DNA from: a virus
Reading direction: 5' to 3' (one strand)
IMG/VR virus record: IMGVR_UViG_3300008339_006854
Location: 1 to 43,734 of that record
DNA length: 43,734 nucleotides
Shown here in pieces: positions 6,500-23,309 of this stretch. The translations under genes and the position numbers were made by a program. The notes below the pieces were generated by a model, which worked only from the letters and a program-made list of their open reading frames with translations, was not told the DNA's origin and ran no database searches. Position 1 is the first letter of the stretch; every line of letters starts with the position of its first letter.

Positions 6500-7216
6500 A
6501 TGAGCACTGTAGTAATCATGCCCGGGGGATTTCATCCTTTCCATGCAGGGCACCTAGCACTTTATCAATCCGCACAACGGGCATTCCCTGATGCTGAAGT
6601 TTTTGTTGCGGCCACAAACGATACCTCAGCTAGACCATTTCCATTTGCAGTAAAAGAAAAGTTGGCCAAGCTGGCTGGAGTAGATGCTGGACATTTTGTG
6701 CAGGTCAAATCACCGTTTCGTGCTGAAGAAATTACTGCGCAATTTAACCCTGCTACAGACACATTAATTTTTGTGCGTTCTGATAAAGACGCCAACAAAC
6801 CTCCACAAGCAGGCGGCATAAAGAAAGATGGCAATCCTGCATACTTGCAACCACTGATAGGTGCAAAGCGATTAGAGCCATTTGCAAAACATGCCTACAT
6901 GGCCTACCTACCCACAGTGGAGTTTGGTCCAGGCATGACGTCGGCCACAGAGATTCGTGGCGCATGGCCCACACTAAACGAAAAACGCAAAACAGCTCTT
7001 GTGATGAGCTTGTATCCAGCAACACAAAAGAATCCCAAATTGGCTGCTAATGTTGTCAAACTGTTGGACACTGCCATTGGTACTGTGGCTGAGAATCAAG
7101 GCTGGGCCGCGACATTTACCAGCGAGAATCAACTGAGTGTGGGTGGCATGAAGGCAGGCTATCAAGCTAGAGAAAATCAGCCCGTTATTGACTACATGGA
7201 AGAGTCTAGGTCGTAA
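6500..7216 (+). CDS. Cytidylyltransferase-like nucleotidyltransferase
   Basis: 238 residues. The N-terminus PGGFHPFHAGHLALYQSA holds the HxGH signature (H-A-G-H at about 15-18) of the nucleotidylyltransferase alpha/beta phosphodiesterase superfamily. TSATEIRG (about 149-156) matches the C-terminal S/T-x-x-x-R nucleotide-binding motif. The fold transfers a nucleotide to NMN, pantetheine phosphate or a sugar-like alcohol; the substrate cannot be told here. Related proteins (VKxPF-AEEIT, KKDGNPAYLQPL pattern) are, from memory, common in structural regions of T4-like marine phages, so it may be a virion protein. About 60 C-terminal residues lie beyond the catalytic domain. Confidence 0.8.
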   Translation: MSTVVIMPGGFHPFHAGHLALYQSAQRAFPDAEVFVAATNDTSARPFPFAVKEKLAKLAGVDAGHFVQVKSPFRAEEITAQFNPATDTLIFVRSDKDANKPPQAGGIKKDGNPAYLQPLIGAKRLEPFAKHAYMAYLPTVEFGPGMTSATEIRGAWPTLNEKRKTALVMSLYPATQKNPKLAANVVKLLDTAIGTVAENQGWAATFTSENQLSVGGMKAGYQARENQPVIDYMEESRS

Positions 7217-11100: not shown

Positions 11101-12320
11101 GTTATGCCAGTGTAGAAGTTGTTGCCACCTCTCGAGAAGAAGCCATTGAAAAAGCCTTGGGGGATGATGGCTATCCGTCTTGGGCCAACACACGACAATC
11201 TATTGTGGCTGAACCTGTGCGTCCGTATAATTTGGATGCACAATCTACACAAGACGACGACACAGCTAGTGCCTTTACTGCACCGCCAGGTTCTCAAGGT
11301 GGTGGCCGCCCCAATGACCCCAACGGTCGCTATGCCATTGTGCTACGCTCGGATCCAGGCCTGTATGGCAGTTTTACTGGCCCAGCACCTGACTATCAGT
11401 TTAGATTTAACATGGGCAATCCAGCGGAACAGGCACAAGGCAGATATGTTCTCCAAGCCTGGGCTGCTAGAAACAATGTGGTTGCTGCTGACTACATGGT
11501 GGTGGATACTGAACAATGGGATCGGCCTGCAGATGCAGCATCGGGTGGTATCATTGACATTGAACCAGATATAGAGGTGGTCTACCCTGGAAGCACAGCA
11601 GCCTTGGCACAACAGCGAGCCACGCCAGGCACATTCTCTGGTGCATGGAAGGTGTTGGTCAATGGTGAAGAAGTTCATAGATTTTCAGGCGTGGGCAACA
11701 ATCAAGGCGATGCTAACCGTGTAGCGGCTCAATGGTTGCGAAACAATGGTCGGGGAGTGTCAGGCGAAGGCTTTGAAGTTGTGCCAATCATGACAGAAGG
11801 TGTAGCCGAAGGCAAGGATCGCTACGGAAACTTTGATCCTCCTGGTCCTGAAAGCCGACCCACAATGCCAGCGGGCACTGTGCGAGTGGATGTGTCAGAC
11901 ATGTATGACTGGTACAAGTTGGGCAAGAACATTGCTAACTTAGACAGAGATAACACTGACGATTTTGGCAAAGGACCACCCAGTACTATTGTGAGTTTTG
12001 GCGACGAAGATCTTGAACATGAATACATCAAGCAGTTGGAAAAACTAGGGTTAACCACCACTGACATTGATCCTGTAGATCCCAATCAACCTGCTGGCAT
12101 CAAGCGTCAAAAAACTGATCCCACATACAACGTAGGTGAAAACTTTGCTGACGGTCGGAATCCCCAAGACAAAGGCGATTCAAAGCGACACGGCGTGCCC
12201 ACCAAAGCATCAGTAAGCACCCTGCGTAAAGTGGCCAAACAAGGCGGTCGCAAAGGACAATTGGCACACTGGATGGCCAACATGAAGGCTGGACGGGCTC
12301 GAGCCAAACGCAATAAATAA
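8151..12320 (+). CDS. Polyprotein: nucleotidyltransferase, metallopeptidase, amidoligase
   Basis: 1389 residues with at least three catalytic-type domains. (1) A Pol-beta-type nucleotidyltransferase (about 1-240) with GS at 65-66 and metal Asp at 77 and 79 in YSDIDLHLV. (2) A zincin-like peptidase with HELAH at 368-372 and a downstream ENEANAVAG. (3) An amidoligase/glutamine-synthetase-like ligase with GMEFEM from 517, EFVSPP, GLHINI from 780 and EFRSPGG from 877. Gly-rich (about 255-275) and very acidic (about 555-690) linkers separate the parts. The last third (about 940-1389) has no recognised fold and a very basic end. No ribosome site is visible. I infer a packaged, possibly protease-processed protein that enters the cell with the DNA. 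Frame and domains are clear; function is inferred. Confidence 0.85.
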   Translation: MNINELDSFKLSDAVKFHNRLNPKIWGRDEQLLPEVREKLLAIADNFREFLGVGDLDVRDITISGSNAAYSYTPYSDIDLHLVVEFPADDEVYQELFNAKKYQYNDEHKLSIGGVPVELYVQNAAESPVSQGEYSIPRDEWIQVPRRKRARIDDTCVRAKVEDLDARIHSAIESGNAESMSRLWDKIKAMRQSGLDAHGEFGCENIVFKILRNKGCIKDLRTARTAAQDHELSLQERRKKKSRVRYGFGSYWSPGFGYGGESGEGGDGGGGESMREGHQGQPYSSEDGVAASTQMFLNEDDTESMVQQFIQDTAERLGIERMPEIVLHDNDGWSEQNRSFGMYQPELHVLHVNLRDRHVMDILRTVAHELAHCRQQELEQLDHTSGNTGSPVENEANAVAGIIMRDFADAHPELFDHEDIRESSGYIPTWAERNDPRFEMALSVDVHPGQTGTEANKMRLATDSQGHPQLLRADGKVKLAESLAQEFELFEEQDLFEINMGSKNLRREAAKTGAIAGMEFEMIVPGMESEDPEMEPDYDQDERCVSIDDAVRFFHDGDYNGRRDVERLRERMQDDFQEWLDEKLRDDWGGESQDYIRDWLRNNVNEDEWNPNELTGDERNEAFDEFAANVDADPSSTYYNEAFDEWREEFQENYDESDWLDATDLDRMSEVEQMYGMNWPYWTSMNSGEIDADQVADEFSQAVGREVRVNTRYHQSGDRPGPNNQFYVVEPDASLEGDNDGDEGLEFVSPPMPIDELLKDLNAVKAWAGRMGVYTNSSTGLHINISVPDYSLDRLDYVKLALLLGDEYVLKQFGRSSNTYTKSALGKVRDRVRSNPEDAQRLLDKMKGQMGELASKAIHSGSTDKYTSINTKSGHIEFRSPGGDWLDDNFDKIENTLLRFTVAMSAALNPEAYREEYQKKLYKLLTQDQKGSDTIRYFADYVAGKIPKAALRSFVKQAQLQRKTERNKTSGEKMWWNVSNPGNSYASVEVVATSREEAIEKALGDDGYPSWANTRQSIVAEPVRPYNLDAQSTQDDDTASAFTAPPGSQGGGRPNDPNGRYAIVLRSDPGLYGSFTGPAPDYQFRFNMGNPAEQAQGRYVLQAWAARNNVVAADYMVVDTEQWDRPADAASGGIIDIEPDIEVVYPGSTAALAQQRATPGTFSGAWKVLVNGEEVHRFSGVGNNQGDANRVAAQWLRNNGRGVSGEGFEVVPIMTEGVAEGKDRYGNFDPPGPESRPTMPAGTVRVDVSDMYDWYKLGKNIANLDRDNTDDFGKGPPSTIVSFGDEDLEHEYIKQLEKLGLTTTDIDPVDPNQPAGIKRQKTDPTYNVGENFADGRNPQDKGDSKRHGVPTKASVSTLRKVAKQGGRKGQLAHWMANMKAGRARAKRNK
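11796..11812 (+). repeat. Dispersed GVAEG repeat, copy 1
   Basis: A 17-nt unit GAAGGTGTAGCCGAAGG encoding EGVAEG, near the end of the polyprotein gene. Four related copies follow in the gene at 12677-14512. Confidence 0.6.
12314..12319 (+). promoter_or_regulatory. Candidate late promoter (AATAAATA)
   Basis: TAAATA overlaps the stop codon of the polyprotein gene and ends 7 nt before the ATG at 12327, with no Shine-Dalgarno. Confidence 0.4.
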
Positions 12321-12326
12321 CCCATC

Positions 12327-12680
12327 ATGAGATATAAAGAAATTCTTGAAGCCTGCTGGACTGGTTATCGCCAAGCAGGCATGAAAAACAAAGGTGGTCG
12401 TCAGGTGCCCAATTGTGTGCCTGTGAGCGAAACCGAGTTGGAAGAAAATCTCCGTGATTGGTTCAAAGACAAGTGGGTACGCTTTGGGCCCGACGGCAAG
12501 ATCCGTGGTGATTGTGCTAGAGGCAGTTCAAAAGAAGGCAAGCCCAAGTGTTTGCCGCAAGCCAAAGCACATGCCCTGGGCAAAAAAGGTCGTGCGTCAG
12601 CAGCCGCAAGAAAACGCAGACAAGATCCCAACCCCAACCGCACAGGAAAGGCCATCAACGTGGCCACTAAAAAGAAATGA
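12327..12680 (+). CDS. Basic internal-protein candidate
   Basis: 117 residues, very rich in Lys, Arg and Gly. The N-terminus MRYKEILE-A strongly resembles the T4 internal-protein capsid-targeting peptide, which ends in I-x-E before a small residue; cleavage after Glu8 is predicted. The C-terminal half reads ARGSSKEGKPKCLP, KAHALGKKGRASAA and KRRQDPNPNRTGK, a small Cys-containing basic module I recall from other phage and giant-virus proteins. It should bind DNA. The gene is coupled to the next by a 4-nt ATGA overlap. A packaged DNA-binding protein is the likely role. Confidence 0.7.
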   Translation: MRYKEILEACWTGYRQAGMKNKGGRQVPNCVPVSETELEENLRDWFKDKWVRFGPDGKIRGDCARGSSKEGKPKCLPQAKAHALGKKGRASAAARKRRQDPNPNRTGKAINVATKKK

Positions 12681-14512
12681 TTATAGACGACTTATTTGAA
12701 GCCTCACAGTCATGCCCACACTGTGGTGGTCCCATGTTCAGTGAAATGCTGATGATGGAAAAGAAAGACGCCTGCTACTACAAAGTAAAAGCGTCAGCAA
12801 AAGTATGGCCATCAGCCTATGCATCTGGACGCTTGGTTCAGTGTCGCAAAAAAGGCGCTGGCAATTATGGCAACAAGTCTGAAGGTGTGATGGAAATGGA
12901 CAAATCACAAACACCTCCAGGGCGTGATGGTAGTAACGATGAAGGCGGCAAAAAAGAATACACTGCTAAAGCAACCACTGCTAAAAAAGTAGCCAAGGAT
13001 GCTGAAAAGATTCTAAACAAAGAGTTAAACAAGAAGCAAGGTGTGGCGGAAGCAACTGGCGATCAAAAGTTTGACTCAATGATGGGTCAGATCACAGGTG
13101 GTGCTACTGCTAGGCAAAGTGTAGATAGTTTGAATAAGTCTCTCACTGCAAGAACAGGCAGCGACCCAGAAACAGCATTGGCCAAATGGGGCCAGGAATT
13201 TATAAATTGGCTTGAAAAAATTTGCCGCAACTTTGAAAGGCAAGGTGTAGATAGGTTTAATAAATTAGAAAAAGTAGGTAATCTTGACGACGGTGGCGAA
13301 ACTATGGCGCACTGGTTGATTGAGGTCGCCAAACAATCCAATACCTCAGGCATTACACAGGCTGACATACAGGAATTTTCTAGCGAGTTTAATACCCACG
13401 GAATGTGGGCTTGGCATCAGTTTCCTATAGCTTGGGGTCTAAAAGAATGGCAAGACTATAAAGATCAATGGACTGGCCCTGATGGTTACATAGCCAATCT
13501 AGGACAAGGCATGGCGGAAGGCTCGGAGTCAGATGCTTACGGTAACACTGGTGAAAAGCATGAATGTGGTTCTTGCGATGGCACTGGAATAGATACACAC
13601 GATGATGAGTGCCCAGAATGCGGTGGCAAAGGCTGGGTGAGAAATAAGGAAGCATTGAAGAAGAAAGGCATGGCGGAAGAGTATGAACTAGCAGGTGTTG
13701 GCGTAGCATACGAACTGGGTCGTCGAGCATACAAACAAGGTATGACCATCAGAGACAATCCATATAGTGCCACAAGAGAAGCCCGTAAAAATGACGAATG
13801 GGCCAAAGGATTAGAACGCGGCAAACACGATGCAAATGATGCCAGACATTTCCGCAGTAGTGTAAGAGAACAAGGTGTAGCGGAAGGTGATCTTGACGAA
13901 GGCTGGAAAGAAAAATTAGGTGGCGCGGCATTGGCAGGTGCAATGGCACTGGGCGCAGGTGGTGCCAATGCTAGAGTTACTCCTGATGGCCAAGGCGGTT
14001 TCACTGGCGGATTCAAGCCAAGTGCAACAATGACATCACCTGCTGATAATAAACCGGCTGCAGAAGCACCAAAAGGCTTTAGCAAAGAATATTTACAAAG
14101 TGTAATAGACGGCAAGCACCCAAGACCAATGGTTAGTGTTGAAAAAGCAAAAGAACTATTAAAGAACATGCAAGAAGGTGACTTGAATGAAAAGTCAACC
14201 AGCCAAGCACAATTCCGCACCATGGCAGCAGCCGCACACAATCCTGAATTTGCAAAAAAAGTTGGCATCAGCCAAGACGTTGCTCAAGAGTTCCACGGTG
14301 CTGATCGCAAGCAGGACTATGCAGACTTGCCTAAAAAGGCTGACGAAAGCAAATCAACTCCCAAAGAAAAAGAAGCCGACTACGGTGATGATTATCAAGA
14401 CATGATTGCTAGAGTAAAGAAACTGGCTGGCTTGGGCCCACTTAAAACTGTGTATGATCCCCAAAAGCGTGTGTATCGCAACATGCCCACAGCGGTGCAA
14501 CCTAAAAAATGA
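12677..14512 (+). CDS. Multi-segment internal-protein candidate with zinc-finger motifs
   Basis: 611 residues. The start MIIDDLFE-A is another predicted capsid-targeting peptide ending L-F-E at 6-8. CPHCGG follows at about 13-18. Around residues 292-318 there is a DnaJ-type zinc finger pair (CGSCDGTG and CPECGGKGW). Linkers carry four QG[VM]AE units (repeats at 13037, 13505, 13664, 13871). A segment near 415-440 (AALAGAMALGAGGANA) is hydrophobic and could insert in a membrane. The C-terminus has DMIARVKKLAGLGPLK. It looks like a string of small modules joined by possible protease sites. Overlaps both neighbours by 4 nt. Function unknown. Confidence 0.75.
   Translation: MIIDDLFEASQSCPHCGGPMFSEMLMMEKKDACYYKVKASAKVWPSAYASGRLVQCRKKGAGNYGNKSEGVMEMDKSQTPPGRDGSNDEGGKKEYTAKATTAKKVAKDAEKILNKELNKKQGVAEATGDQKFDSMMGQITGGATARQSVDSLNKSLTARTGSDPETALAKWGQEFINWLEKICRNFERQGVDRFNKLEKVGNLDDGGETMAHWLIEVAKQSNTSGITQADIQEFSSEFNTHGMWAWHQFPIAWGLKEWQDYKDQWTGPDGYIANLGQGMAEGSESDAYGNTGEKHECGSCDGTGIDTHDDECPECGGKGWVRNKEALKKKGMAEEYELAGVGVAYELGRRAYKQGMTIRDNPYSATREARKNDEWAKGLERGKHDANDARHFRSSVREQGVAEGDLDEGWKEKLGGAALAGAMALGAGGANARVTPDGQGGFTGGFKPSATMTSPADNKPAAEAPKGFSKEYLQSVIDGKHPRPMVSVEKAKELLKNMQEGDLNEKSTSQAQFRTMAAAAHNPEFAKKVGISQDVAQEFHGADRKQDYADLPKKADESKSTPKEKEADYGDDYQDMIARVKKLAGLGPLKTVYDPQKRVYRNMPTAVQPKK
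13037..13053 (+). repeat. Dispersed GVAEG repeat, copy 2
   Basis: CAAGGTGTGGCGGAAGC, encoding QGVAEA. Confidence 0.6.
13505..13521 (+). repeat. Dispersed GVAEG repeat, copy 3
   Basis: CAAGGCATGGCGGAAGG, encoding QGMAEG, directly before the segment that leads to the zinc fingers. Confidence 0.6.
13664..13680 (+). repeat. Dispersed GVAEG repeat, copy 4
   Basis: AAAGGCATGGCGGAAGA, encoding KGMAEE, just after the zinc fingers. Confidence 0.55.
13871..13887 (+). repeat. Dispersed GVAEG repeat, copy 5
   Basis: CAAGGTGTAGCGGAAGG, encoding QGVAEG, followed by DLDEG. A related unit QEGDLNE occurs about 290 nt downstream. Confidence 0.6.
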
Positions 14513-14865
14513 GAGCATACGAGTTTGCACAGTTGAAAGAAGGCGCTGTAGAAGATTTGGAAAAAGATCTAGATGATCCCAAGAGCTACAGCGCAATTGA
14601 TCACATGATGCAAACCATTGCTCGTGACTACGGCATTACTGGCAAACAACTGCACGACGAGTTTGTGAAAAAACACGGCACAATTCCAGACAAGTGGACC
14701 CGCGAGCAACTGCGTGAATTAAGTTTTCTAGGTTCACAATGCACCAAAGACTGTTCTGGTCACAGAGCAGGATATGCCTGGAGTCAAAAGCGCGGTGGCC
14801 GACAACCTGCAAGTTGGAGCGACAGTTTCAATCGCGGTGCCGCACTGTTTGCAGCAGGAAAATAA
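14509..14865 (+). CDS. Small internal-protein candidate
   Basis: 118 residues, coupled to the upstream gene by ATGA. The N-terminus MRAYEFAQLKE-G has the L-x-E ending expected for a prohead-protease-cleaved targeting peptide (after Glu11) and resembles T4 IPIII (MKTYQEFIAE). An acidic helical middle follows (DYGITGKQLHDEFVKKHG), then a C-terminal module with CTKDCSGHRAGYAWSQKRGG and SWSDSFNRGAALF, which I recall from other T4-like phage proteins. It is probably the last gene of the first internal-protein run before the glycan island. Confidence 0.65.
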   Translation: MRAYEFAQLKEGAVEDLEKDLDDPKSYSAIDHMMQTIARDYGITGKQLHDEFVKKHGTIPDKWTREQLRELSFLGSQCTKDCSGHRAGYAWSQKRGGRQPASWSDSFNRGAALFAAGK

Positions 14866-14883
14866 TTAGGCCACCCCAAAACC

Positions 14884-14889
14884 CAAATA
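14884..14889 (+). promoter_or_regulatory. Weak late-promoter-like motif (CAAATA)
   Basis: CAAATA ends 9 nt before the ATG at 14899 in the only gap of this stretch. It differs from the other copies at the first base and no ribosome site is visible. Confidence 0.25.
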
Positions 14890-14898
14890 CATAACTGC

Positions 14899-15744
14899 AT
14901 GATTGATATCTGCACAGTAGTATTTGAACAGGAACTGCCGATCCTTAAAATTCAGGCACAAAGCATAAACAATTATTGTCGCAACATAGGCATAAGAAAT
15001 ATCTATGTGGTGCTCAATGATTACGAAACCCTAGCGGAAAAAATTGATCCAGCATGGTGGGGTGATCTAGCAAGCTCTGTCTTGGTAGTGCCGCGCACAG
15101 CATTCAGCAGTGCTTGGATAGCAAACGGCTGGGTAAGCCAGCAGATTCTAAAACTTCTCACCGCGTCTATAAGTTACAATGTCTACACCATGGTATTAGA
15201 CGCCAAGACTATATTTGTTAGACCCTTGGAAATATCCAAATTGGTTAACGAACAAGGTCAGCTTACTGTGGGACAATTGGATATATTTGATGTTTTTAAA
15301 CCCAGTAAGAACATTGTGGATCAGCTGTTTGACATCAACATGACCAAACAAGCTGGCCCTGGCGGTGTGCCATTTTTCTTCCACAATGACACTGTACGCT
15401 TTATGATTGCTGATACCACAATCAAAACACATGAAAGTTTTCCCACATGGTTTCAGCGCCAAGGCATGCTGACAGAATTCATGTTGTACTCAGGATTTTG
15501 TCAATACAAGTATGGACATTTGGATCATTTTTATACCAAACAAAACACACTTGGCGGTGTGGTAAATGTTTGTCATAGCGAAGTTGACCAGTTTGATAAG
15601 AAACTTGAACTCATGCGTGATAAAAATGCTCTCACAGTGAGTATTCATCGAAATGCTTGGTCAAAAATGTTACCAGAACAAAAAACTGCATTTAAGATGT
15701 TGTTGATTGATCGCGGCCATTTTGCTGCTTGGGAACTTGAATGA
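14899..15744 (+). CDS. Glycosyltransferase-like protein (DUF6492 type)
   Basis: 281 residues. The layout IDICTVVFEQELPILKIQAQSI, then SQQILKLL (80-87) and MVLDAKTIFVRPL (98-110) matches DUF6492-like GT-A proteins. The usual DxD is replaced by D-A-K at 101-103, so catalysis may be altered or the metal site different. It is the first gene of the glycan island and overlaps the next (ATGA). A second, less altered relative is encoded on the minus strand at 18157-19026. Transfer of a sugar to a surface glycan is inferred. Confidence 0.65.
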   Translation: MIDICTVVFEQELPILKIQAQSINNYCRNIGIRNIYVVLNDYETLAEKIDPAWWGDLASSVLVVPRTAFSSAWIANGWVSQQILKLLTASISYNVYTMVLDAKTIFVRPLEISKLVNEQGQLTVGQLDIFDVFKPSKNIVDQLFDINMTKQAGPGGVPFFFHNDTVRFMIADTTIKTHESFPTWFQRQGMLTEFMLYSGFCQYKYGHLDHFYTKQNTLGGVVNVCHSEVDQFDKKLELMRDKNALTVSIHRNAWSKMLPEQKTAFKMLLIDRGHFAAWELE

Positions 15745-16253
15745 ACGCATTGTGTATGGTAGCGCATCCAGATGACTGTGTGATATTTGGTTACAGTTAT
15801 ATTCATGCGCACCCTGAGCACAAATGGACCATTGGCTATTTAACGTACACTGAGCATGATCCCCGAGGCCAAGAACTTTTGGCGTTTTGGAAACGTCGGG
15901 GAATCGACTGTGTGTTTTTGGGCTTTGAAGACCACTGGCATGACAACGAGCAAAAAGTATTCACACGCTGGGCTGAAGAATCTGCCGACCGTGCCTGCTG
16001 GCACCTTGCTCGTGATTATGATCTAGTGCTCACCCATGACGAACTAGGAGACTATGGACACATACATCATGTGCTGGTACATCGTGCAGTGCAGTGGCAT
16101 CCTAGACTGGTAACTTTTGCACGGCCTGGTGAAGGAGTTACACATACAATTCCACCTGGCACATACAACTTAGACGAATTGCCCATGCACAAAGAAATTA
16201 TTGCTAGTTTTCACAGCGAAGAACACCGAAACAGTTACAAGGAAACACTATGA
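15741..16253 (+). CDS. PIG-L/LmbE-type deacetylase
   Basis: 170 residues. VAHPDDC at 7-13 matches the AHPDDE signature of PIG-L/LmbE deacetylases, with the last Glu replaced by Cys. HDELGDYGHIHH (99-110) matches the second metal motif. Known members remove acetyl groups from N-acetylglucosamine-containing lipids or antibiotics using zinc; the likely ligands His9, Asp12 and His110 (or 107) are kept. The protein is short for the family (usually about 220-300). It overlaps both neighbours by 4 nt and would act on an amino sugar made or modified by this island. Confidence 0.8.
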   Translation: MNALCMVAHPDDCVIFGYSYIHAHPEHKWTIGYLTYTEHDPRGQELLAFWKRRGIDCVFLGFEDHWHDNEQKVFTRWAEESADRACWHLARDYDLVLTHDELGDYGHIHHVLVHRAVQWHPRLVTFARPGEGVTHTIPPGTYNLDELPMHKEIIASFHSEEHRNSYKETL

Positions 16254-17065
16254 AATTAATGGTAGCAGGCTGCTCGTTTTCGGCAGTGAGTCAAACTTTG
16301 CCAGGCACTGCTTGGAGTGAACGCTTGGCCGAAAAACTAGGTGGCTGGGAGTTGGTTAACCTAGCACGCCAAGGTTGTTCAAACGGCGGCATCCGTATAC
16401 AAATAGACGAGATACGCAGACAGCGTCCAGACTTTGCTGTGATTGGTCCTACCTTCTGGGATCGTATGGAAATACCTGCAAACTCTGTGCCATATGATTG
16501 GTCACAGGCACCCAGCGCCGGGGAAAATCCTCCACTAGAACGACACCTACAAAATAGAAAACTGGGCAATGGCTACAACAGACAAGATGGCATACGCAAT
16601 GTAAATTATGGTCGGGAGCCATCAAACATGATCTGCGAAACTATTTTTACTCTTGCAGAAAACTTTGATCATCCGTACAGACAGGGCCGCATTACCAAAC
16701 AAGCGCAGAACGGCATACGTCACTGGATTGATTCAATCTATGACAATGCTTGGAAAAAGCAACAGGACGAGTGGATGATCCGAGAAGGTGTGATTACCAT
16801 GTTCTTGGATGACATCAAGTTTTTAGTGCTACCCAACTTGCTGTGGCCATTCGATCCTGACAATCATACCTTATGGCGTGATGCGTTTCCTAAACTTATC
16901 CCTGATCACTACATACAATTGGACACAACTAAAAGTCCTCAAGCCATATGTGGCAGTTACCCATTTTCAGGAGACGACCCTGGATATCATTCTGGTCCCG
17001 AAGGACAGGAAAAAATTGCTGAAAACTTCTATCAGCACATTTCAACCCACTTCGTCATCCCATAA
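16250..17065 (+). CDS. SGNH/GDSL-like hydrolase
   Basis: 271 residues. Block I is VAGCSFS with the nucleophile candidate Ser9, where the usual GDS is GCS. NLARQGCSNGGI follows as block II. The C-terminal DPGYHSGPEGQEKIAENF supplies Asp243 and His247 for the catalytic triad. Such enzymes add or remove O-acyl groups on glycans. The last 24 nt overlap tail to tail with the minus-strand gene 17042-18169. Phage relatives of this type are frequent next to glycosyltransferase genes. Confidence 0.75.
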   Translation: MKLMVAGCSFSAVSQTLPGTAWSERLAEKLGGWELVNLARQGCSNGGIRIQIDEIRRQRPDFAVIGPTFWDRMEIPANSVPYDWSQAPSAGENPPLERHLQNRKLGNGYNRQDGIRNVNYGREPSNMICETIFTLAENFDHPYRQGRITKQAQNGIRHWIDSIYDNAWKKQQDEWMIREGVITMFLDDIKFLVLPNLLWPFDPDNHTLWRDAFPKLIPDHYIQLDTTKSPQAICGSYPFSGDDPGYHSGPEGQEKIAENFYQHISTHFVIP

Positions 17066-18169
17066 CCAATGGCCACCTTCAATGTGTTGATGCAGTAGAT
17101 CAGACATTGTGGCTTGAAACTGAATCTGGTAACTGCGCAATCTAGCTTGGTTGTGATCCAGTATGGCTTGTATGCGTTCATACAACACTTTGGGATTTTC
17201 AAAATATGCCAACTGCAATACCTGATGCATGGCCCGTTCAAATCGTATGCTGTCCACAGGATGTTCATCGTAGCTTTCGTCAAGGATACTGCTAAATGTT
17301 TCAAACCCTAGTTCGCGCATGCGAGCAAGAAATCCTTGTGCGCCAAAAAACACAAAAATTCTTCTGGCTAACAAACACTTGGTAACTTTTTCACTCCAGA
17401 AAAATGTTGTGCCAGTGCCCAGTGTTTCACACACAATGCTGTAATGACTGCGTTGATAGATGTTCCAGGGCACATATGGACTGATACTGCGAGTGATGTT
17501 GTCCGTGACTTCCCATGCAGGATTTAAGTTTGCACTCACGTAAGGCCACTTTAGCGGAGTGTCATAAAAAGTCTGCTGAAATTGATCACAGTTTCTGTCA
17601 ATCAATTTGCCTTCAAAGCAATCTCTGTAGGTCACAATGCTACGATCCAACAGCCCAGTTTTGTCCATGGCCATCATCACATAGTCACGGTGCGGTCTAC
17701 GTGCTCCTAACAGTGCTTCAAACATGTAGGGTTTTTGATCTTGGTAGGTGTCTTGGTATTCGTTGTGTCGCAAGAGATTGTAAGCCCACCAAGGGCGATA
17801 CACCATGCAGGATTGATCCAATTCTTCTCCTTGCACAAGACCGCCTACTGCCAACACATAACGTTGAATTTTGTTTTTTTCAATCCAGGCACGTATTTCT
17901 TTAACACTGTAGTATTCAATGTCACTCAGCAGTACCAAATCAAACTGACTGAGATCCATGTCAGCCAGTGCTGGATCATAATCAAACACGCCGGGCTCGT
18001 TGCACAGCACACGAAATGCTGCTACAGACCACGGTTGACTCAGCGCCAGTGCAGGATCGTTGGTAGTTTCAAATCTGCCCAGACCCCAATCAGCTGTGAC
18101 ATCAATACTTTGTGATGCAGGTTGATACACAGGATATCGGAACTTTGCTGGGTATGTTATTGTGTACAT
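17042..18169 (-). CDS. SEKT-family protein, glycosyltransferase-like
   Basis: 375 residues on the minus strand. The C-terminal half has HYSIVCETLG, FFWSEKVTKCLLARRIFVFF, GFLARMRELGFETFSSILDESYDE. This SEK(T)/LGF-TF/DESYD pattern recurs in many uncharacterised phage and bacterial proteins next to sugar genes and recalls the donor-site half of GT10-like fucosyltransferases. The N-terminal half has VLLSDIEYYS. A paralogue is encoded at 38222-39223. It overlaps the upstream minus-strand gene by 13 nt, and its 3' end overlaps the plus-strand SGNH gene. Sugar transfer is inferred, not shown. Confidence 0.6.
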   Translation of the reverse strand: MYTITYPAKFRYPVYQPASQSIDVTADWGLGRFETTNDPALALSQPWSVAAFRVLCNEPGVFDYDPALADMDLSQFDLVLLSDIEYYSVKEIRAWIEKNKIQRYVLAVGGLVQGEELDQSCMVYRPWWAYNLLRHNEYQDTYQDQKPYMFEALLGARRPHRDYVMMAMDKTGLLDRSIVTYRDCFEGKLIDRNCDQFQQTFYDTPLKWPYVSANLNPAWEVTDNITRSISPYVPWNIYQRSHYSIVCETLGTGTTFFWSEKVTKCLLARRIFVFFGAQGFLARMRELGFETFSSILDESYDEHPVDSIRFERAMHQVLQLAYFENPKVLYERIQAILDHNQARLRSYQIQFQATMSDLLHQHIEGGHWLWDDEVG

Positions 18170-19026
18170 TGCTTCACCATGTGTTGATAATGTTCAAAAT
18201 TAGGTATGTCCAATGTGTCCCAATCAAGTTGCATGCTTTGACTTAGGTCCGGCACAGCATCACATACTGCATTGAACTCTTTGGCATTCAATGTAGACAA
18301 CAGCTCCAATTGATTGTATTCAAAACGTTTCTGAAAAGTGTAGTTGATGGGATCACAACATGCTGCCCAGTTTCCTATCAATTCATATTCTGAAAACCAT
18401 TTGATTATTTCGCCTGTGCCCCAGGGAGGTATTGTGGGCATGCCAGGAACAGCGTCAATAATAGCGTCCAGCCACAGTTTGTTGGGCCAACGTTGGGCCA
18501 GCAGTTTGCGCAATTCAAGCCAGTGTGTGCGCAGTACAGGCACAAGCTCTGACACAAAACAATGCGGGCTGGCCTCTGGCAATCCAGTAATGCTTTCAAA
18601 TACCCCATGATAACTGCCGTGCTTGGTGTCAGGTATCACAAGATAATTCAGTTGTTCACCATCCCAGCATCTATAAGGTTCAATCATAAAAGTGTCACAG
18701 TCATGCATGAGTATGACATCTTCTTCCAACAGGTCTCGGTAGGCCAGTTTGATTGCTTGTTGTCGCAACCACCAGCCCCGATAGTCATGGTCAAACACCC
18801 AGTTGTTGACTTCAGGATAGCGTTGGTATATCACACTGTCATTCATGTACTTTAGCTGTGAAGTATCAATACCATAGCGTTCAAACACTGGCCATAGTTC
18901 ATGCTGTGGCACTGGCGAAGCTATTATGGTGTAATCTATGCCCAGTAAATTATGGTCCCACTGCATGGCAAAACATGCATGTGGCACACGATATCTTGCT
19001 AGGAACAATACTCTTGCTACAGTCAT
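18157..19026 (-). CDS. GT-A glycosyltransferase (DUF6492 type)
   Basis: 289 residues on the minus strand. GWWLRQQAIKLAYRDLLEED (84-103) leads into VILMHDCDTFMIEP with DCD at 109-111, a full DxD metal and nucleotide-sugar site. A hydrophobic IPPWGTGEIIKWF follows near residue 200. The protein lacks a signal or membrane segment and should act in the cytoplasm. It overlaps the SEKT-family gene, so both are probably made together. No TAAATA motif is seen directly before its start, and it likely shares a transcript with the radical SAM gene upstream. Confidence 0.75.
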   Translation of the reverse strand: MTVARVLFLARYRVPHACFAMQWDHNLLGIDYTIIASPVPQHELWPVFERYGIDTSQLKYMNDSVIYQRYPEVNNWVFDHDYRGWWLRQQAIKLAYRDLLEEDVILMHDCDTFMIEPYRCWDGEQLNYLVIPDTKHGSYHGVFESITGLPEASPHCFVSELVPVLRTHWLELRKLLAQRWPNKLWLDAIIDAVPGMPTIPPWGTGEIIKWFSEYELIGNWAACCDPINYTFQKRFEYNQLELLSTLNAKEFNAVCDAVPDLSQSMQLDWDTLDIPNFEHYQHMVKQCTQ

Positions 19027-19069
19027 AACAAGTTGACAATTTGATTCATGAATTGTTGTAGATCTTTAT

Positions 19070-20116
19070 TCATGTTCGATTACAAGTTACTACACATTGA
19101 TAAGTTCTGCCAGCCGCAATGCTAGACTCATTCCAGGTTTGTTCCACACGTTCAAACCATTCAAGACAGTGTTCAAGAGGATATTCCAATGCATTGTTTT
19201 CTGTTACTAATGGAGCCAGTTCTTGATTGCCGGGATGATTCATGGTATGCGGATAAAACCCCAAAAAGCAGCAGGGATAAACAGAGCCGTCGGCAGCTAT
19301 GTATATTTCTCGATTGCGTTTGTGATGACACTGCATGTCTAGCACAGGAGTATCTTTGTGATGTGTGATTGTTTTGGCATCGTACCAAGTGATATGACTT
19401 TCCAAAAAAGGATGCACTGTTTGATTGGTAAGACCGCCAGGGTCTGGACCAATCTTGTGACTGAATGTGCCGTCTCGATTGTATACCGACGTGCGATCTC
19501 TTCCATCATAGATATTTTCAAACTTTGCAAAGCCCATTTGGGCAGCCATATCTCTGCAGGCCTGTTCCTGATGACGGTTATGATCAAACGGCACAAACCT
19601 CCATACAGCTTGTCCACCAGCGTTGATCAGTGCTTGAGCATGTGAAATTATTCTATGCCAGTCTGTGTCTTGGCGATACAAATGATGCGTGTCTGCTAGG
19701 CCATCAATGGCAAAACCCACTGTAACTTTGGGTAGAGCCAGTCTTGCCCACCATTCTGGACTGCGCACAGAACCATTGGTATTGATAATAACAGGTACCT
19801 GATGCTCTACCAGGTATTCTACTATTTCAACAGCATCACGTGCAGAAGCAAAATCACCCAGATTTCCATTGAATGCCACACCTCTAAATTCATATATGAT
19901 TGGCACACGATCTCCAATGGGCGGATCGGGCTGAATTAGTTGTGCTAAAACGTTAGGAGTTAGAATTTTCTTGAAATCTCCAACACTGAGTTCACACAGC
20001 GGATATCCACTATTGTAATCATACCCTCGATAGTTTCTCATGCACATGGGGCATCTGGCATTGCATCTAGTGGTCAATTCCACATGCACTTTGCGTATAT
20101 CATTCAATTTTAGCAT
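19070..20116 (-). CDS. Radical SAM enzyme with SPASM-like C-terminus
   Basis: 348 residues using the ATG at 20116, chosen because TATAAATA ends 4 nt upstream and because the fold begins directly (KVHVELTTRCNARCPMC). A longer frame to 20173 exists. Cys18, Cys22 and Cys25 form the CxxxCxxC iron-sulfur site that cleaves S-adenosylmethionine. Further Cys-rich segments near the end (CHH, YPCC, CLEW, CVVTC) look like a SPASM/twitch domain for extra clusters. Such enzymes modify peptides or sugars. The two downstream minus-strand genes are glycosyltransferase-like, so a sugar or glycopeptide substrate is plausible. Confidence 0.85.
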   Translation of the reverse strand: MLKLNDIRKVHVELTTRCNARCPMCMRNYRGYDYNSGYPLCELSVGDFKKILTPNVLAQLIQPDPPIGDRVPIIYEFRGVAFNGNLGDFASARDAVEIVEYLVEHQVPVIINTNGSVRSPEWWARLALPKVTVGFAIDGLADTHHLYRQDTDWHRIISHAQALINAGGQAVWRFVPFDHNRHQEQACRDMAAQMGFAKFENIYDGRDRTSVYNRDGTFSHKIGPDPGGLTNQTVHPFLESHITWYDAKTITHHKDTPVLDMQCHHKRNREIYIAADGSVYPCCFLGFYPHTMNHPGNQELAPLVTENNALEYPLEHCLEWFERVEQTWNESSIAAGRTYQCVVTCNRT

Positions 20117-20120
20117 GCAA

Positions 20121-20128
20121 TATTTATA
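20121..20128 (-). promoter_or_regulatory. Consensus T4 late promoter, minus strand
   Basis: An exact TATAAATA on the minus strand (plus-strand TATTTATA), followed by TTGC and the ATG at 20116. It faces a second motif on the plus strand at 20143. Confidence 0.6.
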
Positions 20129-20142
20129 GACCCACTTAATGA

Positions 20143-20148
20143 TAAATA
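20143..20148 (+). promoter_or_regulatory. Candidate late promoter (GATAAATA)
   Basis: GATAAATA (20141-20148) ends 5 nt before the ATG at 20154. It forms a divergent pair with the minus-strand motif 15-20 nt away. Confidence 0.55.
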
Positions 20149-20153
20149 TCTTT

Positions 20154-20438
20154 ATGAACAAAAAGTTTGTCAAGGTAATTTGCGAAGTTTATTGCCAAGG
20201 TTGGACTGACCCTCCAACCTACCGAGCTTATGTCAATAATGAATTGTTTACCGAACGCACCTGGGTTTGGCGTGATCAGCATTTGGAAGAGTCTTTTCAA
20301 ATTGCCGCAGAACCAGGTAAGTACAAGTTGCGCTATGAATTATTGCCTGGAACATTAGCGTCAATACAGCAGCTGAATTGGCGTGTGGTTGATGGCCCGG
20401 GCATGATAGACAGCGGCGGCGAGTTGGAAATACTATAA
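20154..20438 (+). CDS. Small beta-rich protein of unknown function
   Basis: 94 residues from the ATG at 20154. An in-frame ATG at 20139 would place the TAAATA motif inside the gene, so the later start is preferred. The protein begins MNKKFVKVICEVYCQGW and continues with strand-like segments (YRAYVNNELFTERTW; KYKLRYELLPG). Its stop shares a base with the next ATG (TAATG). It opens the second run of internal-protein genes; structural or core location is inferred. Confidence 0.65.
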   Translation: MNKKFVKVICEVYCQGWTDPPTYRAYVNNELFTERTWVWRDQHLEESFQIAAEPGKYKLRYELLPGTLASIQQLNWRVVDGPGMIDSGGELEIL

Positions 20439-20650
20439 TGAAAATTCAAGAAATCATGGAAAATGCGTCAGTGGGCGGCACCAGTGCTGGTAGTATAGCA
20501 CCTGTGAGCCAGGCCTTAGGCATGGTGTCAAGATCAGGCGGATCCTTGTTGAGTGGTAAATATACAACTGATCCTACGCCTAACACGCCCAAGGAATACA
20601 AAAGGAATAAGAATGTTAGCGGACGCTTTAAAAACACTCCTGGCAACTGA
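20438..20650 (+). CDS. Small internal-protein candidate
   Basis: 70 residues. The N-terminus MKIQEIME-N has I-x-E at 6-8, the same position as in the proteins at 12327 and 12677, so cleavage after Glu8 by a prohead protease is predicted. The remainder is Ser/Gly-rich and ends with basic residues (KEYKRNKNVSGRFKNTPGN), likely disordered and DNA-binding. The start overlaps the upstream stop, and the dps gene starts inside its last 38 nt. Confidence 0.6.
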   Translation: MKIQEIMENASVGGTSAGSIAPVSQALGMVSRSGGSLLSGKYTTDPTPNTPKEYKRNKNVSGRFKNTPGN

Positions 20651-21053
20651 GGAGGCTTTTGCTCTCAAAGCCAAACAGTTCCACTGGAACGTTGAAGGCC
20701 CAGACTTTGGCCAGCTTCACGCTTTCTTTGACGCAATCCATGACGATGTTTATGGTGCTACAGATCCCACAGCAGAATACATACGTGCCCTGGGCGACTA
20801 TGCTCCTGGTAGTTTTGAACGATTTGTAGAATTAACAAAAATACAGGGCCAAACAAAAATTCCACGTGCCCGACTCATGCTAGAAGAACTCTTGGCCAAC
20901 AACGGCCAAATGTTGGATCTTCTCAATCAAGTCTTCCAAGTAGCAACTGAAGAAAACCAACAAGGTATTGCTAACTTCATTGCTGAACGCATCGATGCTC
21001 ATCAAAAGCATGGCTGGATGCTGAGAAGTTACCTGAAAGAAGAAAGAGCATGA
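20613..21053 (+). CDS. dps: Dps-like ferritin (DNA protection protein)
   Basis: 146 residues from the ATG at 20613, chosen for its AAGGA ribosome site and because MLADALKTLLATEEAFALKA is the normal Dps start. The ferroxidase signature is complete: KQFHWNVEGPDFGQLHAFFD then TDPTAEYIRALGDYAPG, including both His, the Asp residues and the Glu. Dps proteins form 12-subunit shells that oxidise iron with peroxide and protect DNA. There is no long Lys-rich N-terminal tail for direct DNA binding. It lies inside the internal-protein run, overlapping both neighbours, so it may be packaged or made late to protect phage DNA. Confidence 0.9.
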   Translation: MLADALKTLLATEEAFALKAKQFHWNVEGPDFGQLHAFFDAIHDDVYGATDPTAEYIRALGDYAPGSFERFVELTKIQGQTKIPRARLMLEELLANNGQMLDLLNQVFQVATEENQQGIANFIAERIDAHQKHGWMLRSYLKEERA

Positions 21054-21775
21054 GTTCGGACATTAGATCAATACTGGAACGCCTTGCGGCGGTAGAAGGT
21101 AAACTTACGCCAGTAGGCGTCAAGCATGGGCTTAACACACAACAAAAAGGTGTGCCACAGTTGCCTGCGCTGTTCAAGCCTAAATCAGCCAGTCCTGCGT
21201 TGCGTGCCAAAAAAGATCCAGCACATCCAATGGATGGATACATGGTGGGTGATTCTGTAGAGCCCAGAAAATCCGCACTAGAAGAAGCCATGCAAGAAGT
21301 TGAAGAAGATATGTTGAGCAAGGTCAAGAAGGACCTTACACAATATCTTGATCAGTTGGAACAAAAAGTTCGAGTTGATCGTGAACTCAAAGACAAAGCA
21401 GTTGACGCTGTGGAAAAAGGTCAAGCCGAAGAAGAAATTGAAGAAGATGACTACGAGTTGACAGATCCCAGCACAGTGCATGGCATCGAGGACAAAGTAG
21501 ACACTCAGCTAGGCAACCCACAACAGCCTATCAATGACATGTCAGAAACATCATCTGCTCCGGTAAAAAGTTACGCCATGGAATATGGTGTTACCTTTGA
21601 ATGTTATGGCAACGAAAAGGATGGATTTGAACTGCGGCAAGGTAATAGATCCATGCCCAGCAAATTTAAAAACCTAGACCATGCTGACATGGCAGTAAAG
21701 TTGTTTCAAAAACGCAGAGCAATGAAACAACAGGCTCAACAAACAAGCCAACAAGATTATTTGGATGAACGCTAA
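21050..21775 (+). CDS. Acidic coiled-coil internal-protein candidate
   Basis: 241 residues, coupled to dps by ATGA. The N-terminus MSSDIRSILE-R has I-x-E at 8-10. A highly charged helical region at about 80-150 (EEAMQEVEEDMLSKVKKDL; QAEEEIEEDDYELTD) looks like a coiled coil typical of scaffold or core proteins. The C-terminal 65 residues form a compact alpha/beta unit (YAMEYGVTFECYGNEKDGFE; FKNLDHADMAVKLFQKRR) ending in a Gln-rich tail. A prohead core role is inferred from composition and neighbours. Confidence 0.65.
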   Translation: MSSDIRSILERLAAVEGKLTPVGVKHGLNTQQKGVPQLPALFKPKSASPALRAKKDPAHPMDGYMVGDSVEPRKSALEEAMQEVEEDMLSKVKKDLTQYLDQLEQKVRVDRELKDKAVDAVEKGQAEEEIEEDDYELTDPSTVHGIEDKVDTQLGNPQQPINDMSETSSAPVKSYAMEYGVTFECYGNEKDGFELRQGNRSMPSKFKNLDHADMAVKLFQKRRAMKQQAQQTSQQDYLDER

Positions 21776-21776
21776 A

Positions 21777-23309
21777 ATGATATACACTGATCTAATCAAA
21801 CCAACTACCACAATCAACGAGCAACAGCTTGACGAAATTAGCCTGGACCAGGTTGGTCGAGGCATTGGCGGCCTTGTCGGCGGCATTGGTAAAACAGCAG
21901 GCGCTGTGGCAGGTATTCCGCAAGGCCTGGGTCGAGCAATTAAAAAAGGTTATCGTGGATCAGTAAAAGGCATTGGTGGCGAAGATGATGCTGGCAGCAC
22001 AGTGCCCGGCGCAGCCTATGGTGACACATCTGGCGCCAAGGCCGGCGGTAAAGCAGAAATGCCAATTGGATCTAATACGATTAATCCTCGTACCGGCAAG
22101 CCCTATGTGCCTAGTGATTTTTCTGGGCCGTCAGGTGGTAGTGCAACAGCAACACCTGCACCTGCTGCTTCTGGCGGTGGCGGTGGCGCAGCAGCCACAC
22201 GAGATGCTGACACAGTCAAAACAGAACTGCGCAATTTAGATGCAGCCTACAAAACAAGACGCAATGCGCTAAACAAAGAACTTGAAGCACTGTCATCAAC
22301 ACCTGCTGGTGATGCTGGCACAGAACCTACTGCAGAACCCGCAACCGGTGCATTGGGATCAGCAATTGCAGGAACCCCAACTGGTGGCAAGCCTGAAACA
22401 GTCAGCATTGGTGGACAAAAGATTTCTCCAAGCGATCCGTTGTATGCCAAAATTGCCGCATCACAAGTGATGCAAAACAAACCTCTAGTGCAATCCATTC
22501 AAGCTCTTGACGCCAAGCAGTTGGAAATAGTCAAACAGATATTGTCTAAAAAGGCCGCTGGTGCATTGGAAGAACGTTTGCCTCCTACAGTCGCACCTGT
22601 GGTACCAAACAAAAGCAGAATGAGCCAAGCATACGACATGGGCAAACAAGCTCTAAAAACCACAGGTTCAGCAATTGCTGCAACACCACGTGCGCTTTCA
22701 ACTGCTGCTGGTGCCACAAGAGGTGCATTCACTGGAATGTCACAAGCATACGCTAAAGGCAAACAAGCTGGTACCAAGTATGTAGGGCAAGGCGAATTGA
22801 GCTGGGACGATATACAAGTTGAATTGGCCAATCTGTCAGTAGAAGATGCCAAAGCATTGTTGAGTTTTGTAAATCAACTGGGAGTCACAGCAGCAGAGCC
22901 TGCTCCAGCACCAGCGCCAGCACCAGGAGCGACAGCACATGAACCAAGTGATGTTCAAATAGCTAATTTAGTTAGAGATGTTCAGAAAGGACCTGATGAA
23001 GTATTATCCAGATTTGCCGCAAGAACAGATTTACATCCAAAAATGAAAGCAGTTCTTGATGCTGAGATAGCAAAAAGAGCTAGTAGACCACCCGCACCTG
23101 CTCCAGCAGACGCCTCTGGCTCAGGAGCAGCCGGCAAGGTTCCTGGATACACAGGTCGCAAGGTCAAACTGCCTACAAAGCAAACAAAAACTCTGCCCAC
23201 AAAGACTAAAAAGAAAAAACTAAGAGAGAAGATTGTTGCAGAAACTTTGACTTGGAGCAAAAACTTTGATCCAAGCCGCCACCTAATCAAACAAATCCGT
23301 CGTACATAA
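21777..23309 (+). CDS. Gly/Ala/Pro-rich internal-protein candidate
   Basis: 510 residues from the ATG at 21777; an ATG 12 nt earlier overlaps the previous gene. The start MIYTDLIKP leads to INE at 13-15 and LDE at 18-20, possible prohead-protease sites. Then comes a Gly-rich amphipathic stretch (VGRGIGGLVGGIGKTAGAVA) that could interact with membranes, a long Ala/Pro/Gly disordered part, a second AIAATPRALSTAAGATRGAF stretch, PAPAPAPAPG linkers with short helical units between, and a basic C-terminus (KQTKTLPTKTKKKKLREK). The modular, membrane-active look suits an ejected protein. No family is recognised. Confidence 0.65.
   Translation: MIYTDLIKPTTTINEQQLDEISLDQVGRGIGGLVGGIGKTAGAVAGIPQGLGRAIKKGYRGSVKGIGGEDDAGSTVPGAAYGDTSGAKAGGKAEMPIGSNTINPRTGKPYVPSDFSGPSGGSATATPAPAASGGGGGAAATRDADTVKTELRNLDAAYKTRRNALNKELEALSSTPAGDAGTEPTAEPATGALGSAIAGTPTGGKPETVSIGGQKISPSDPLYAKIAASQVMQNKPLVQSIQALDAKQLEIVKQILSKKAAGALEERLPPTVAPVVPNKSRMSQAYDMGKQALKTTGSAIAATPRALSTAAGATRGAFTGMSQAYAKGKQAGTKYVGQGELSWDDIQVELANLSVEDAKALLSFVNQLGVTAAEPAPAPAPAPGATAHEPSDVQIANLVRDVQKGPDEVLSRFAARTDLHPKMKAVLDAEIAKRASRPPAPAPADASGSGAAGKVPGYTGRKVKLPTKQTKTLPTKTKKKKLREKIVAETLTWSKNFDPSRHLIKQIRRT

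Follow-up and report, generated by a model that had tools for sequence, protein, structure and literature searches.

The window analysed here is the whole of a 43,734-base virus record (IMG/VR IMGVR_UViG_3300008339_006854), in which a run of plus-strand genes encodes a modular polyprotein and several small proteins with short N-terminal leaders ending in hydrophobic-x-Glu. The 500 bases at each end of the window and its middle 500 bases match, with consistent spacing, a 364,404-base IMG/VR contig (G001); with G001 reversed, the window corresponds to positions 295,867-339,600. Profile searches showed that G001 encodes a Peptidase_S77 prohead protease (gp21, PF03420, E 2e-24) and a T4-type gp23 capsid protein (PF07068, E 7e-98), both near 101-104 kb in oriented coordinates, and for this reason G001 is a T4-like jumbo phage. 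The gene between these two is called gp22-like from its position only. An initial annotation of the window had proposed, from [I/L]-x-E motifs near the starts of six products, that these genes, together with the neighbouring Dps gene and perhaps the polyprotein, encode internal proteins that are cut by gp21 as in T4, packaged and injected. It had also pointed to gp21 and the capsid protein of the parent genome as places to look; the protease was found as above, and the capsid protein carries the same kind of site (below). The features that bear on this proposal are listed here, with genes named by their start position and a slash marking a predicted cut.

8151-12320, plus strand: 1389-residue multi-domain protein; GVAE/G at residues 1217-1221 (nucleotides 11799-11813) and NVGE/N at residues 1327-1331 (nucleotides 12129-12143).
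Domains of 8151, plus strand: nucleotidyltransferase-like N-terminal domain (residues 14-233); HELAH metallopeptidase-like motif; amidoligase domain (residues 691-885); basic C-terminal module.
12327-12680, plus strand: 117-residue protein; leader MRYKEILE/A, predicted cut after nucleotide 12350; CWxGY module; LEE/N (nucleotides 12438-12446); DWF module.
12677-14512, plus strand: 611-residue modular polyprotein; leader MIIDDLFE/A; MME/KKDACY (WPSAYASG module); module H.
Further parts of 12677, plus strand: zinc-ribbon-like module; RMF-like module (weak match); SQAQFR module; C-terminal RVKKLAGL.
13040-13054, plus strand: separator GVAE/A in 12677, residues 122-126.
13508-13522, plus strand: separator GMAE/G in 12677, residues 278-282.
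13667-13681, plus strand: separator GMAE/E in 12677, residues 331-335.
13874-13888, plus strand: separator GVAE/G in 12677, residues 400-404, followed by LDE/G (nucleotides 13892-13903).
14183-14194, plus strand: LNE/K in 12677, residues 503-506, immediately preceding the SQAQFR module.
14509-14865, plus strand: 118-residue protein; leader MRAYEFAQLKE/G; second site LRE/L (nucleotides 14710-14718); GSxCTKDCSGH module.
20438-20650, plus strand: 70-residue protein; leader MKIQEIME/N, then the capsid N-arm-like stretch NASVGGTSAGSIA (nucleotides 20462-20500); phrog_17311 (unknown function).

The modular organization of these proteins was apparent from their relatives. An IMG/VR search returned 38 loci related to the 12677 product, whose modules recur elsewhere in other orders, and nine seed profiles found new combinations. 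Module H (residues 126-281), which is 78-84% identical in eight relatives, was found in proteins of 416 to 1470 residues with varying neighbours. In loci L011 to L022 and L028, the match is confined to query residues 118-288 at most, corresponding to the interval between two QG[VM]AE motifs; in L008 and L009 the alignment runs on to residue 495 (49%), and L010 aligns from residue 97. An AlphaFold2 model of module H (9 sequences) had a mean predicted local distance difference test score of 61.5 and was used for no reading. The RMF-like module matches Pfam RMF at residues 344-385 (nucleotides 13706-13831) with E 0.0053, below the curated cut-off, and a PDB sequence comparison up to E 1 gave no match; this weak RMF-like piece, if delivered, could act on host ribosomes. 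GNAT acetyltransferase and cytidylyltransferase domains were matched in relatives. Up to seven separators per frame were also seen among relatives. A 1470-residue protein on another contig (L021, 7970-12379) has the leader MYITELFE, a cytidylyltransferase, a basic module and more modules, with six [QP]GVAE separators. In 8151, the nucleotidyltransferase-like label comes from a sequence motif and the amidoligase label from a domain match; the N-terminal domain is homologous to gp156 of the cyanophage S-CREM2 (34% identity over 231 residues). The CWxGY and DWF modules of 12327 are both present in S-CREM2 gp160 and in gp029 of the cyanophage S-SCSM1.

The separators, of the general form QG[VM]AE/[GA], part modules in 12677 and at the end of 8151. 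A degenerate DNA pattern for EQGVAEG retrieved at least 120 stretches with 123 frames, 75 of which contained two or more G[VMIL]AE sites, compared to 0 of 61 frames for a scrambled control pattern (61 stretches). Defining a polyprotein as an open reading frame (ORF) of at least 100 residues with two or more sites gave 114, or 90 after near-duplicates were removed; ORFs with exactly one site were placed in neither the polyprotein nor the comparison set. The 90 polyproteins contain 299 sites versus a shuffle mean of 6.5 (maximum 16), a set enriched through the choice of pattern-bearing loci. An endpoint test, which compares within the same proteins, placed 22.0% of 2304 alignment endpoints internal to both proteins within 5 residues of a G[VMIL]AE site, compared to 5.8% of random positions; the majority of endpoints therefore fall away from these sites. 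A further test of the borders was independent of the QGVAE word and used module anchors picked by the analyst from the sequences seen. [VILMF]xE immediately precedes the DWF module in 20 of 28 distinct contexts, KKDACY in 17 of 20, the DUF3008-like module in 7 of 7, SQAQFR in 6 of 6, CTKDCSGH in 13 of 13 (as LxE) and FADGR in 11 of 14 places (28 rows in the output, the pattern counting each place twice). Separators lie at the borders of exchangeable modules, where they are enriched, not universal.

T4 gp21 cleaves after L/I-x-E (PMC9026906), and the hydrophobic-x-Glu rule of the separators is the same rule. The initial annotation had added the polyprotein with a "perhaps"; it proves central, with separators that obey the gp21 rule at module borders. 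In 188 imperfect in-frame separator copies, the Glu was kept in 187, and its codon showed 24 synonymous changes versus 1 non-synonymous, compared to a neutral synonymous fraction of 0.11. The residue two before the Glu (P3) was Val in 151, Met in 25, Leu in 4, Ala in 4, Ile in 3 and Asp in 1, with V/M/L/I in 183, and the Ala, Gly and Gln positions (P2, P4 and P5) vary. An additional 15 imperfect copies were excluded, 12 outside a long forward frame and 3 in other frames. Because the Glu and hydrophobic P3 codons are constrained in imperfect copies, we conclude that the separator peptide has probably been selected as a protease site.

The separator might instead be a DNA element, either a recombination seam or a mini-repeat, that shuffles modules and encodes a merely tolerated linker without any proteolysis. 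As such an element would predict, separator codon identity within one polyprotein is 0.867 versus 0.445 expected from codon usage, 37 of 100 separator pairs are identical 18-mers with flank identity at background (0.301 versus 0.291), and the 17-mer CAAGGTGTGGCGGAAGG is present in at least 120 IMG/VR viral stretches. However, 91 of 93 exact 17-mer copies from newly fetched loci are read as QGVAEG within the longest open frame, the constraint falls on the Glu and P3 codons, and other module borders with different DNA still carry [VILMF]xE. The separator DNA also has 13 matching stretches in cellular genomes, 12 with one site in that frame and 1 with two, and we judged all of these to be chance matches. 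The frame and codon tests weaken a pure DNA-repeat explanation, which we regard as distinctly unlikely, and conservation at the DNA level remains; the short DNA identity may additionally reflect recombination between separators.

Another explanation accepts the leaders and denies the internal cuts: the proteins would be ordinary single-leader internal proteins of the T4 kind, and the internal [V/L]xE sites would serve as flexible linkers, left uncut, in virion proteins with several domains. In T4, both leaders and cutting at the N-terminus are well documented (PMC9026906), multi-domain cyanophage proteins have been detected in virions, and fragments of them go unreported in the parts of the S-CREM2 work available to us. 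The internal sites share the P3/P1 rule with the leaders and with the capsid site and are strongly constrained, and we consider the linker explanation unlikely.

We then consider which protease would act at these sites. Contigs carrying the module loci encoded both an S77 protease and gp23 in 3 of 9 cases in a first search and 9 of 14 in a second; among the 20 distinct carrier contigs (three contigs were common to both sets), both genes were detected in 10 and neither in 10. Since gp21 and gp23 are neighbouring genes, their co-presence counts once, not twice, and the negative contigs may be fragments. Capsid proteins from nine carrier contigs read LENTR[RK]xL[AKGL]E/[NST]A, and that of G001 reads LKE/N at the matching place. 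By comparison with T4, we take this LxE to be at the position expected for gp23 maturation. If a Glu-specific protease of the host made the cuts instead of gp21, or if they were made after injection, the 10 carrier contigs without detected gp21 would be accounted for; against this alternative, nine carrier capsid proteins share the xE/small-residue site near the presumed maturation position, and we hold it to be very improbable.

All six N-terminal motifs are at the residues named in the initial annotation: ILE at 6-8 before Ala in 12327, LFE at 6-8 before Ala in 12677, LKE at 9-11 before Gly in 14509, IME at 6-8 before Asn in 20438, ILE at 8-10 before Arg in 21050, and LDE at 18-20 counted from 21777, which are residues 22-24 of the 21765 ORF. 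As a telling sign by itself the motif does not hold up: 73 of 431 G001 ORFs have an [IL]xE whose Glu is at residues 8-20, versus 70.3±6.4 in shuffled sequences (200 shuffles, internal Met starts allowed), and we rejected the bare criterion as evidence alone, its frequency being equal to chance on G001. A tighter leader pattern, M[KRIN]x2-7[FILMVY]xE[AGSNDTQ], was found in 14 of 431 ORFs versus 7.0±2.5 shuffled (maximum of 200 shuffles, 14). The ORFs 12327, 12677 and 14509 belong to these 14, and 20438 fell outside the ORF list used for the counts because the greedy caller preferred a longer overlapping ORF at 20553.

These four genes rise above chance because their leaders are conserved in relatives. 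Relatives of 14509 begin MRAFDFITE/D, MRYKEFISE/S, MKTHDFVNE/A and MRANEFLLE/S, those of 12677 begin MIIHDLYE/S, MIITDLFE/S and MIINDLFE/E, and the Glu at the leader site is kept among the 20438 relatives listed. For 12327, with 22 listed of 54 distinct matches, the 4 orthologues (window included) that align over the leader keep EILE/ACW, with starts MRYREILE/ACW and MTYKEILE/ACW, and the remaining 18 have only the second module in common. More broadly, hydrophobic-x-Glu with the Glu at residues 7-12 was present in 31 of 66 distinct complete polyprotein N-termini, compared to 190 of 956 other ORFs from the same loci (Fisher p 3e-6). The claim of T4-like targeting leaders is thus partly supported: right in kind for four genes, by a reason that does not hold alone, since the support comes from conservation in relatives and not from motif frequency; the site cited in 21050 did not survive (below). 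That the N-terminal motifs are chance and the products cytoplasmic late proteins is suggested by the shuffled frequencies and by the two of six sites that lack support, yet conservation in divergent relatives, resemblance to the capsid N-arm and detection of relatives in virions make this highly improbable.

The N-arm resemblance was not confined to 20438. When a profile of the 20 residues around the capsid site was run against 19,003 ORFs, 42 distinct non-capsid ORFs scored 8 bits or more (best E 5e-8), compared to 2 reversed and 1 shuffled controls and 0 of 6857 control-locus frames. Of these 42, 27 are 59-89 residues long, and many have a T4-form leader immediately preceding the copy, such as MRAQEFIKE/NASVGSTSSGSVATV. 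The window protein 20438 is among them and itself scores weakly (12.1 bits, E 0.14), its relatives reaching E 5e-8; compared with its own capsid protein, 1 of 500 shuffles was equally good. In the cyanophages, S-CREM2 gp160 and S-SCSM1 gp275 resemble the cyanophage capsid arm. The 61-residue gp275 (NC_070962, 93121-93306) is annotated "major head protein"; its sequence indicates a short protein with a capsid N-arm-like stretch and not a capsid protein. When four N-arm proteins were compared pairwise with capsid proteins, matches were confined to the lineage of each: 0-1 of 500 shuffles did equally well within it, versus at least 52 of 500 for the other lineage. The N-arm segment of gp160 returned itself alone from the phage collection at E up to 1, and the assignment of an N-arm copy to gp160 therefore comes from the pairwise shuffle test.

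Virion data are available for cyanophage relatives. Module-bearing phage records numbered 363 with a window protein as the query and 488 with Syn33_105, nearly all of them cyanophages. The module gene adjoins terS and terL in 6 of 8 records (Syn33, S-CAM8, P-SSM2, S-SSM4, S-SKS1 and S-SCSM1) and immediately precedes terS in P-SSM2; in S-CREM2 and C48C1 module proteins lie elsewhere, with S-CREM2 also having a DUF6321-ended one between terS and terL. Mass spectrometry of S-CREM2 virions lists gp136, gp137, gp154, gp156 and gp160 (PMC10665884, Table 3). From their sequences, gp136 has the leader MQTFSMFFSE, gp137 a DUF6321-like end, gp154 a cytidylyltransferase with the leader MKNFSSFLTE, gp156 is the homologue of the 8151 N-terminal domain and gp160 consists of three modules. 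In S-SCSM1, gp029 (four modules), gp279 (the DUF3008-like module alone, as a separate gene) and gp281 (NMNAT, leader MKSFLQFLKE) are labelled as virion proteins. For this phage, 45 virion proteins were reported by mass spectrometry, NMNAT among them (PMC9602691), and the other virion labels are taken to stem from the same work. Over all start codons, the leader pattern was found 10 times in S-SCSM1 versus 9.8±3.4 shuffled and 12 times in S-CREM2 versus 8.2±3.2, and we rejected it as a genome-wide predictor in these phages. At annotated starts, which account for 8 of the 22 matches, 4 of 8 were virion-detected (gp13, gp136, gp154 and gp281) compared to ~97 of 501 genes, a count made by hand and an enrichment that is suggestive only.

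From these results, we think it likely that 12327, 12677, 14509, 20438 and 8151 encode head cargo of a T4-like jumbo phage, leader-targeted in all but the leaderless 8151 and diced by gp21. More generally, large T4-like phages of lakes seem, as a family, to stock their heads with modular proteins that bear a short entry tag and many copies of one cutting signal, at which the phage's own head protease could dice them. A short N-terminal leader ending in hydrophobic-x-Glu would take each precursor (12327, 12677, 14509 and 20438) into the prohead core, where gp21 would remove it. The protease would also cleave longer precursors at internal [V/L/M/I]-x-E separators, mostly QGVAE/G, so that one precursor gives several independent modules. 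The released pieces would be small Cys-rich basic, zinc-ribbon-like and RMF-like modules and, from 8151, enzyme-like domains; they would stay in the head with the DNA and probably be delivered along with it. With its leader and capsid N-arm-like stretch, 20438 may exploit the contact made by that arm. The DNA itself provides the sites, their selective constraint, their placement at module borders and the protease and capsid genes on G001; from the analogy with T4, we infer leader function, cutting, virion location and injection in the window phage.

Several observations weigh against this reading. First, the cargo genes are ~200 kb away from the gp21-gp23 cluster on G001, and the carrier contigs without detected gp21 or gp23 include ones of 343 and 262 kb. 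Second, the bare motif is no more frequent on G001 than in shuffled sequences, the same holds approximately for the leader pattern in the two cyanophages, and polyprotein leaders are enriched but not universal. Third, the separator is conserved as DNA too, and part of its spread therefore needs no protease. Lastly, the peptide support in S-CREM2 is low, with 3 to 8 unique peptides per protein (PMC10665884), and the authors of the S-CREM2 and S-SCSM1 proteomes point out that co-purification with virions may account for such proteins.

A broader form of the proposal is possible, and we put it forward tentatively: an open cargo system, in which a cassette of ~17 nucleotides serves both as the QGVAE/G protease site and as an in-frame recombination seam, with lineage-matched copies of the capsid N-arm as a second targeting device. 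New modules could then be added to one polyprotein that bears a leader, and would enter the head with it to be cut apart and delivered.

The remaining genes of the run and one gene upstream are as follows.

6500-7216, plus strand: cytidylyltransferase/NMNAT-like protein without a leader.
20613-21053, plus strand: Dps/ferritin-like protein without a leader; homologues start at MLADALK.
21050-21775, plus strand: 241-residue protein; AVE/G (nucleotides 21089-21100, Glu16/Gly17) as the conserved candidate site.
21765-23309, plus strand: 514-residue low-complexity protein with INE and LDE close to the start.

Homologues of 6500 on other contigs do bear a leader, MFIADLFE/S and others. In 21050, the ILE site at 8-10 was rejected, as 4 of the 22 listed rows (of 24) retain Glu10 and the others have Asp, Gln, Lys or another residue; Glu16 or its aligned equivalent, followed by Gly or Ser, is present in all 22 listed rows, and we propose from this alignment Glu16/Gly17 as a candidate site in its place. 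No divergent relative of 21765 was present among the loci fetched. The neighbouring Dps, which had been suggested as a further leader-targeted internal protein, has no leader, and its homologues among those listed start with MLAD or similar. Its longest ORF has a GTG start at 20553 and overlaps 20438; 20613, where homologues begin, is the probable start of the gene. Among 87 Dps ORFs in the fetched loci (copies retained), 31 are immediately preceded by a small leader/N-arm ORF. Within the otherwise plus-strand run, three minus-strand ORFs occupy 17042-20173; the one at 19070-20173 shows, close to its start, a radical-SAM-like CxxxCxxC motif.

Two other sequence features were observed. The 12677 product has RVKKLAGL near its C-terminus (nucleotides 14414-14434), and the gp22-like ORF (L043, same contig) ends LKRLAGL, possibly a shared core-binding tail. 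On a different contig (G018, IMGVR_UViG_3300047558_000137, ~153-172 kb; L346 and L368), an array of small minus-strand ORFs has a C-terminal ending like FxLRW[AS], with 19 such ORFs in 19 kb by one pattern versus 1 in the whole of G001. A further G018 ORF (~106 residues) includes a copied portion of gp23 (Pfam Gp23 positions 7-32, E 4e-7), the region holding the Gol peptide in T4, and is possibly a capsid-peptide decoy.

If the proposal is true, this would be a novel means of supplying a phage head with cargo and of varying that cargo, and one short signal would explain the head entry of many uncharacterised late genes in large T4-like phages. Cargo would become readable from sequence, each leader or separator predicting a mature protein, and the non-DNA material injected by phages would become testable module by module; the capsid N-arm, for its part, would be indicated as a possible signal for packing. 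Because the S-CREM2 and S-SCSM1 versions bear T4-form leaders, the proposal would also suggest how NMNAT/cytidylyltransferase gets into cyanophage virions, a finding that those who reported it could not separate from co-purification. In the titles, abstract openings and term counts of the open-access papers listed by our searches, we found no description of a phage QGVAEG motif or of a prohead-protease polyprotein, and we met no description there of modular protease-dicing cargo with capsid-arm copies.

Comparison with known systems places the window phage among several partial likenesses. The inner-body and ejection proteins of phiKZ and SPN3US are also head cargo with propeptides removed by a gp21-related protease in multiple cuts (PMC10052503, PMC9026906), but there the multiple cuts strip a propeptide, and a modular polyprotein is not described in the portions of these papers available to us. 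The cyanophage proteins encoded beside terS and terL (DUF6321-containing; T4-GC 119 in P-SSM2 and Syn33) share the DWF, CWxGY, WPSAYASG and DUF3008-like modules, and their relatives are reported in S-SCSM1 and S-CREM2 virions; in the few sequences inspected, their separators differ, being mainly FVNE, TNE and SE and not QGVAE. The T4 internal proteins IPI-III and Alt are alike in their short leader ending in L/I-x-E, in gp21 on the same contig and in their small basic cargo, and the T4 leader form is matched by the relatives' leaders MRYKEFISE, MKTHDFVNE and MRAFDFITE. Each T4 internal protein bears a single leader and is processed at its ends, whereas long proteins of the window phage and its relatives have as many as seven sites in their interior, lying between unrelated modules. 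The T4 core proteins gp22, gp67 and gp68 also undergo several gp21 cuts per protein (PMC9026906), whereas the predicted pieces of the window phage are conserved modules that recur in other orders.

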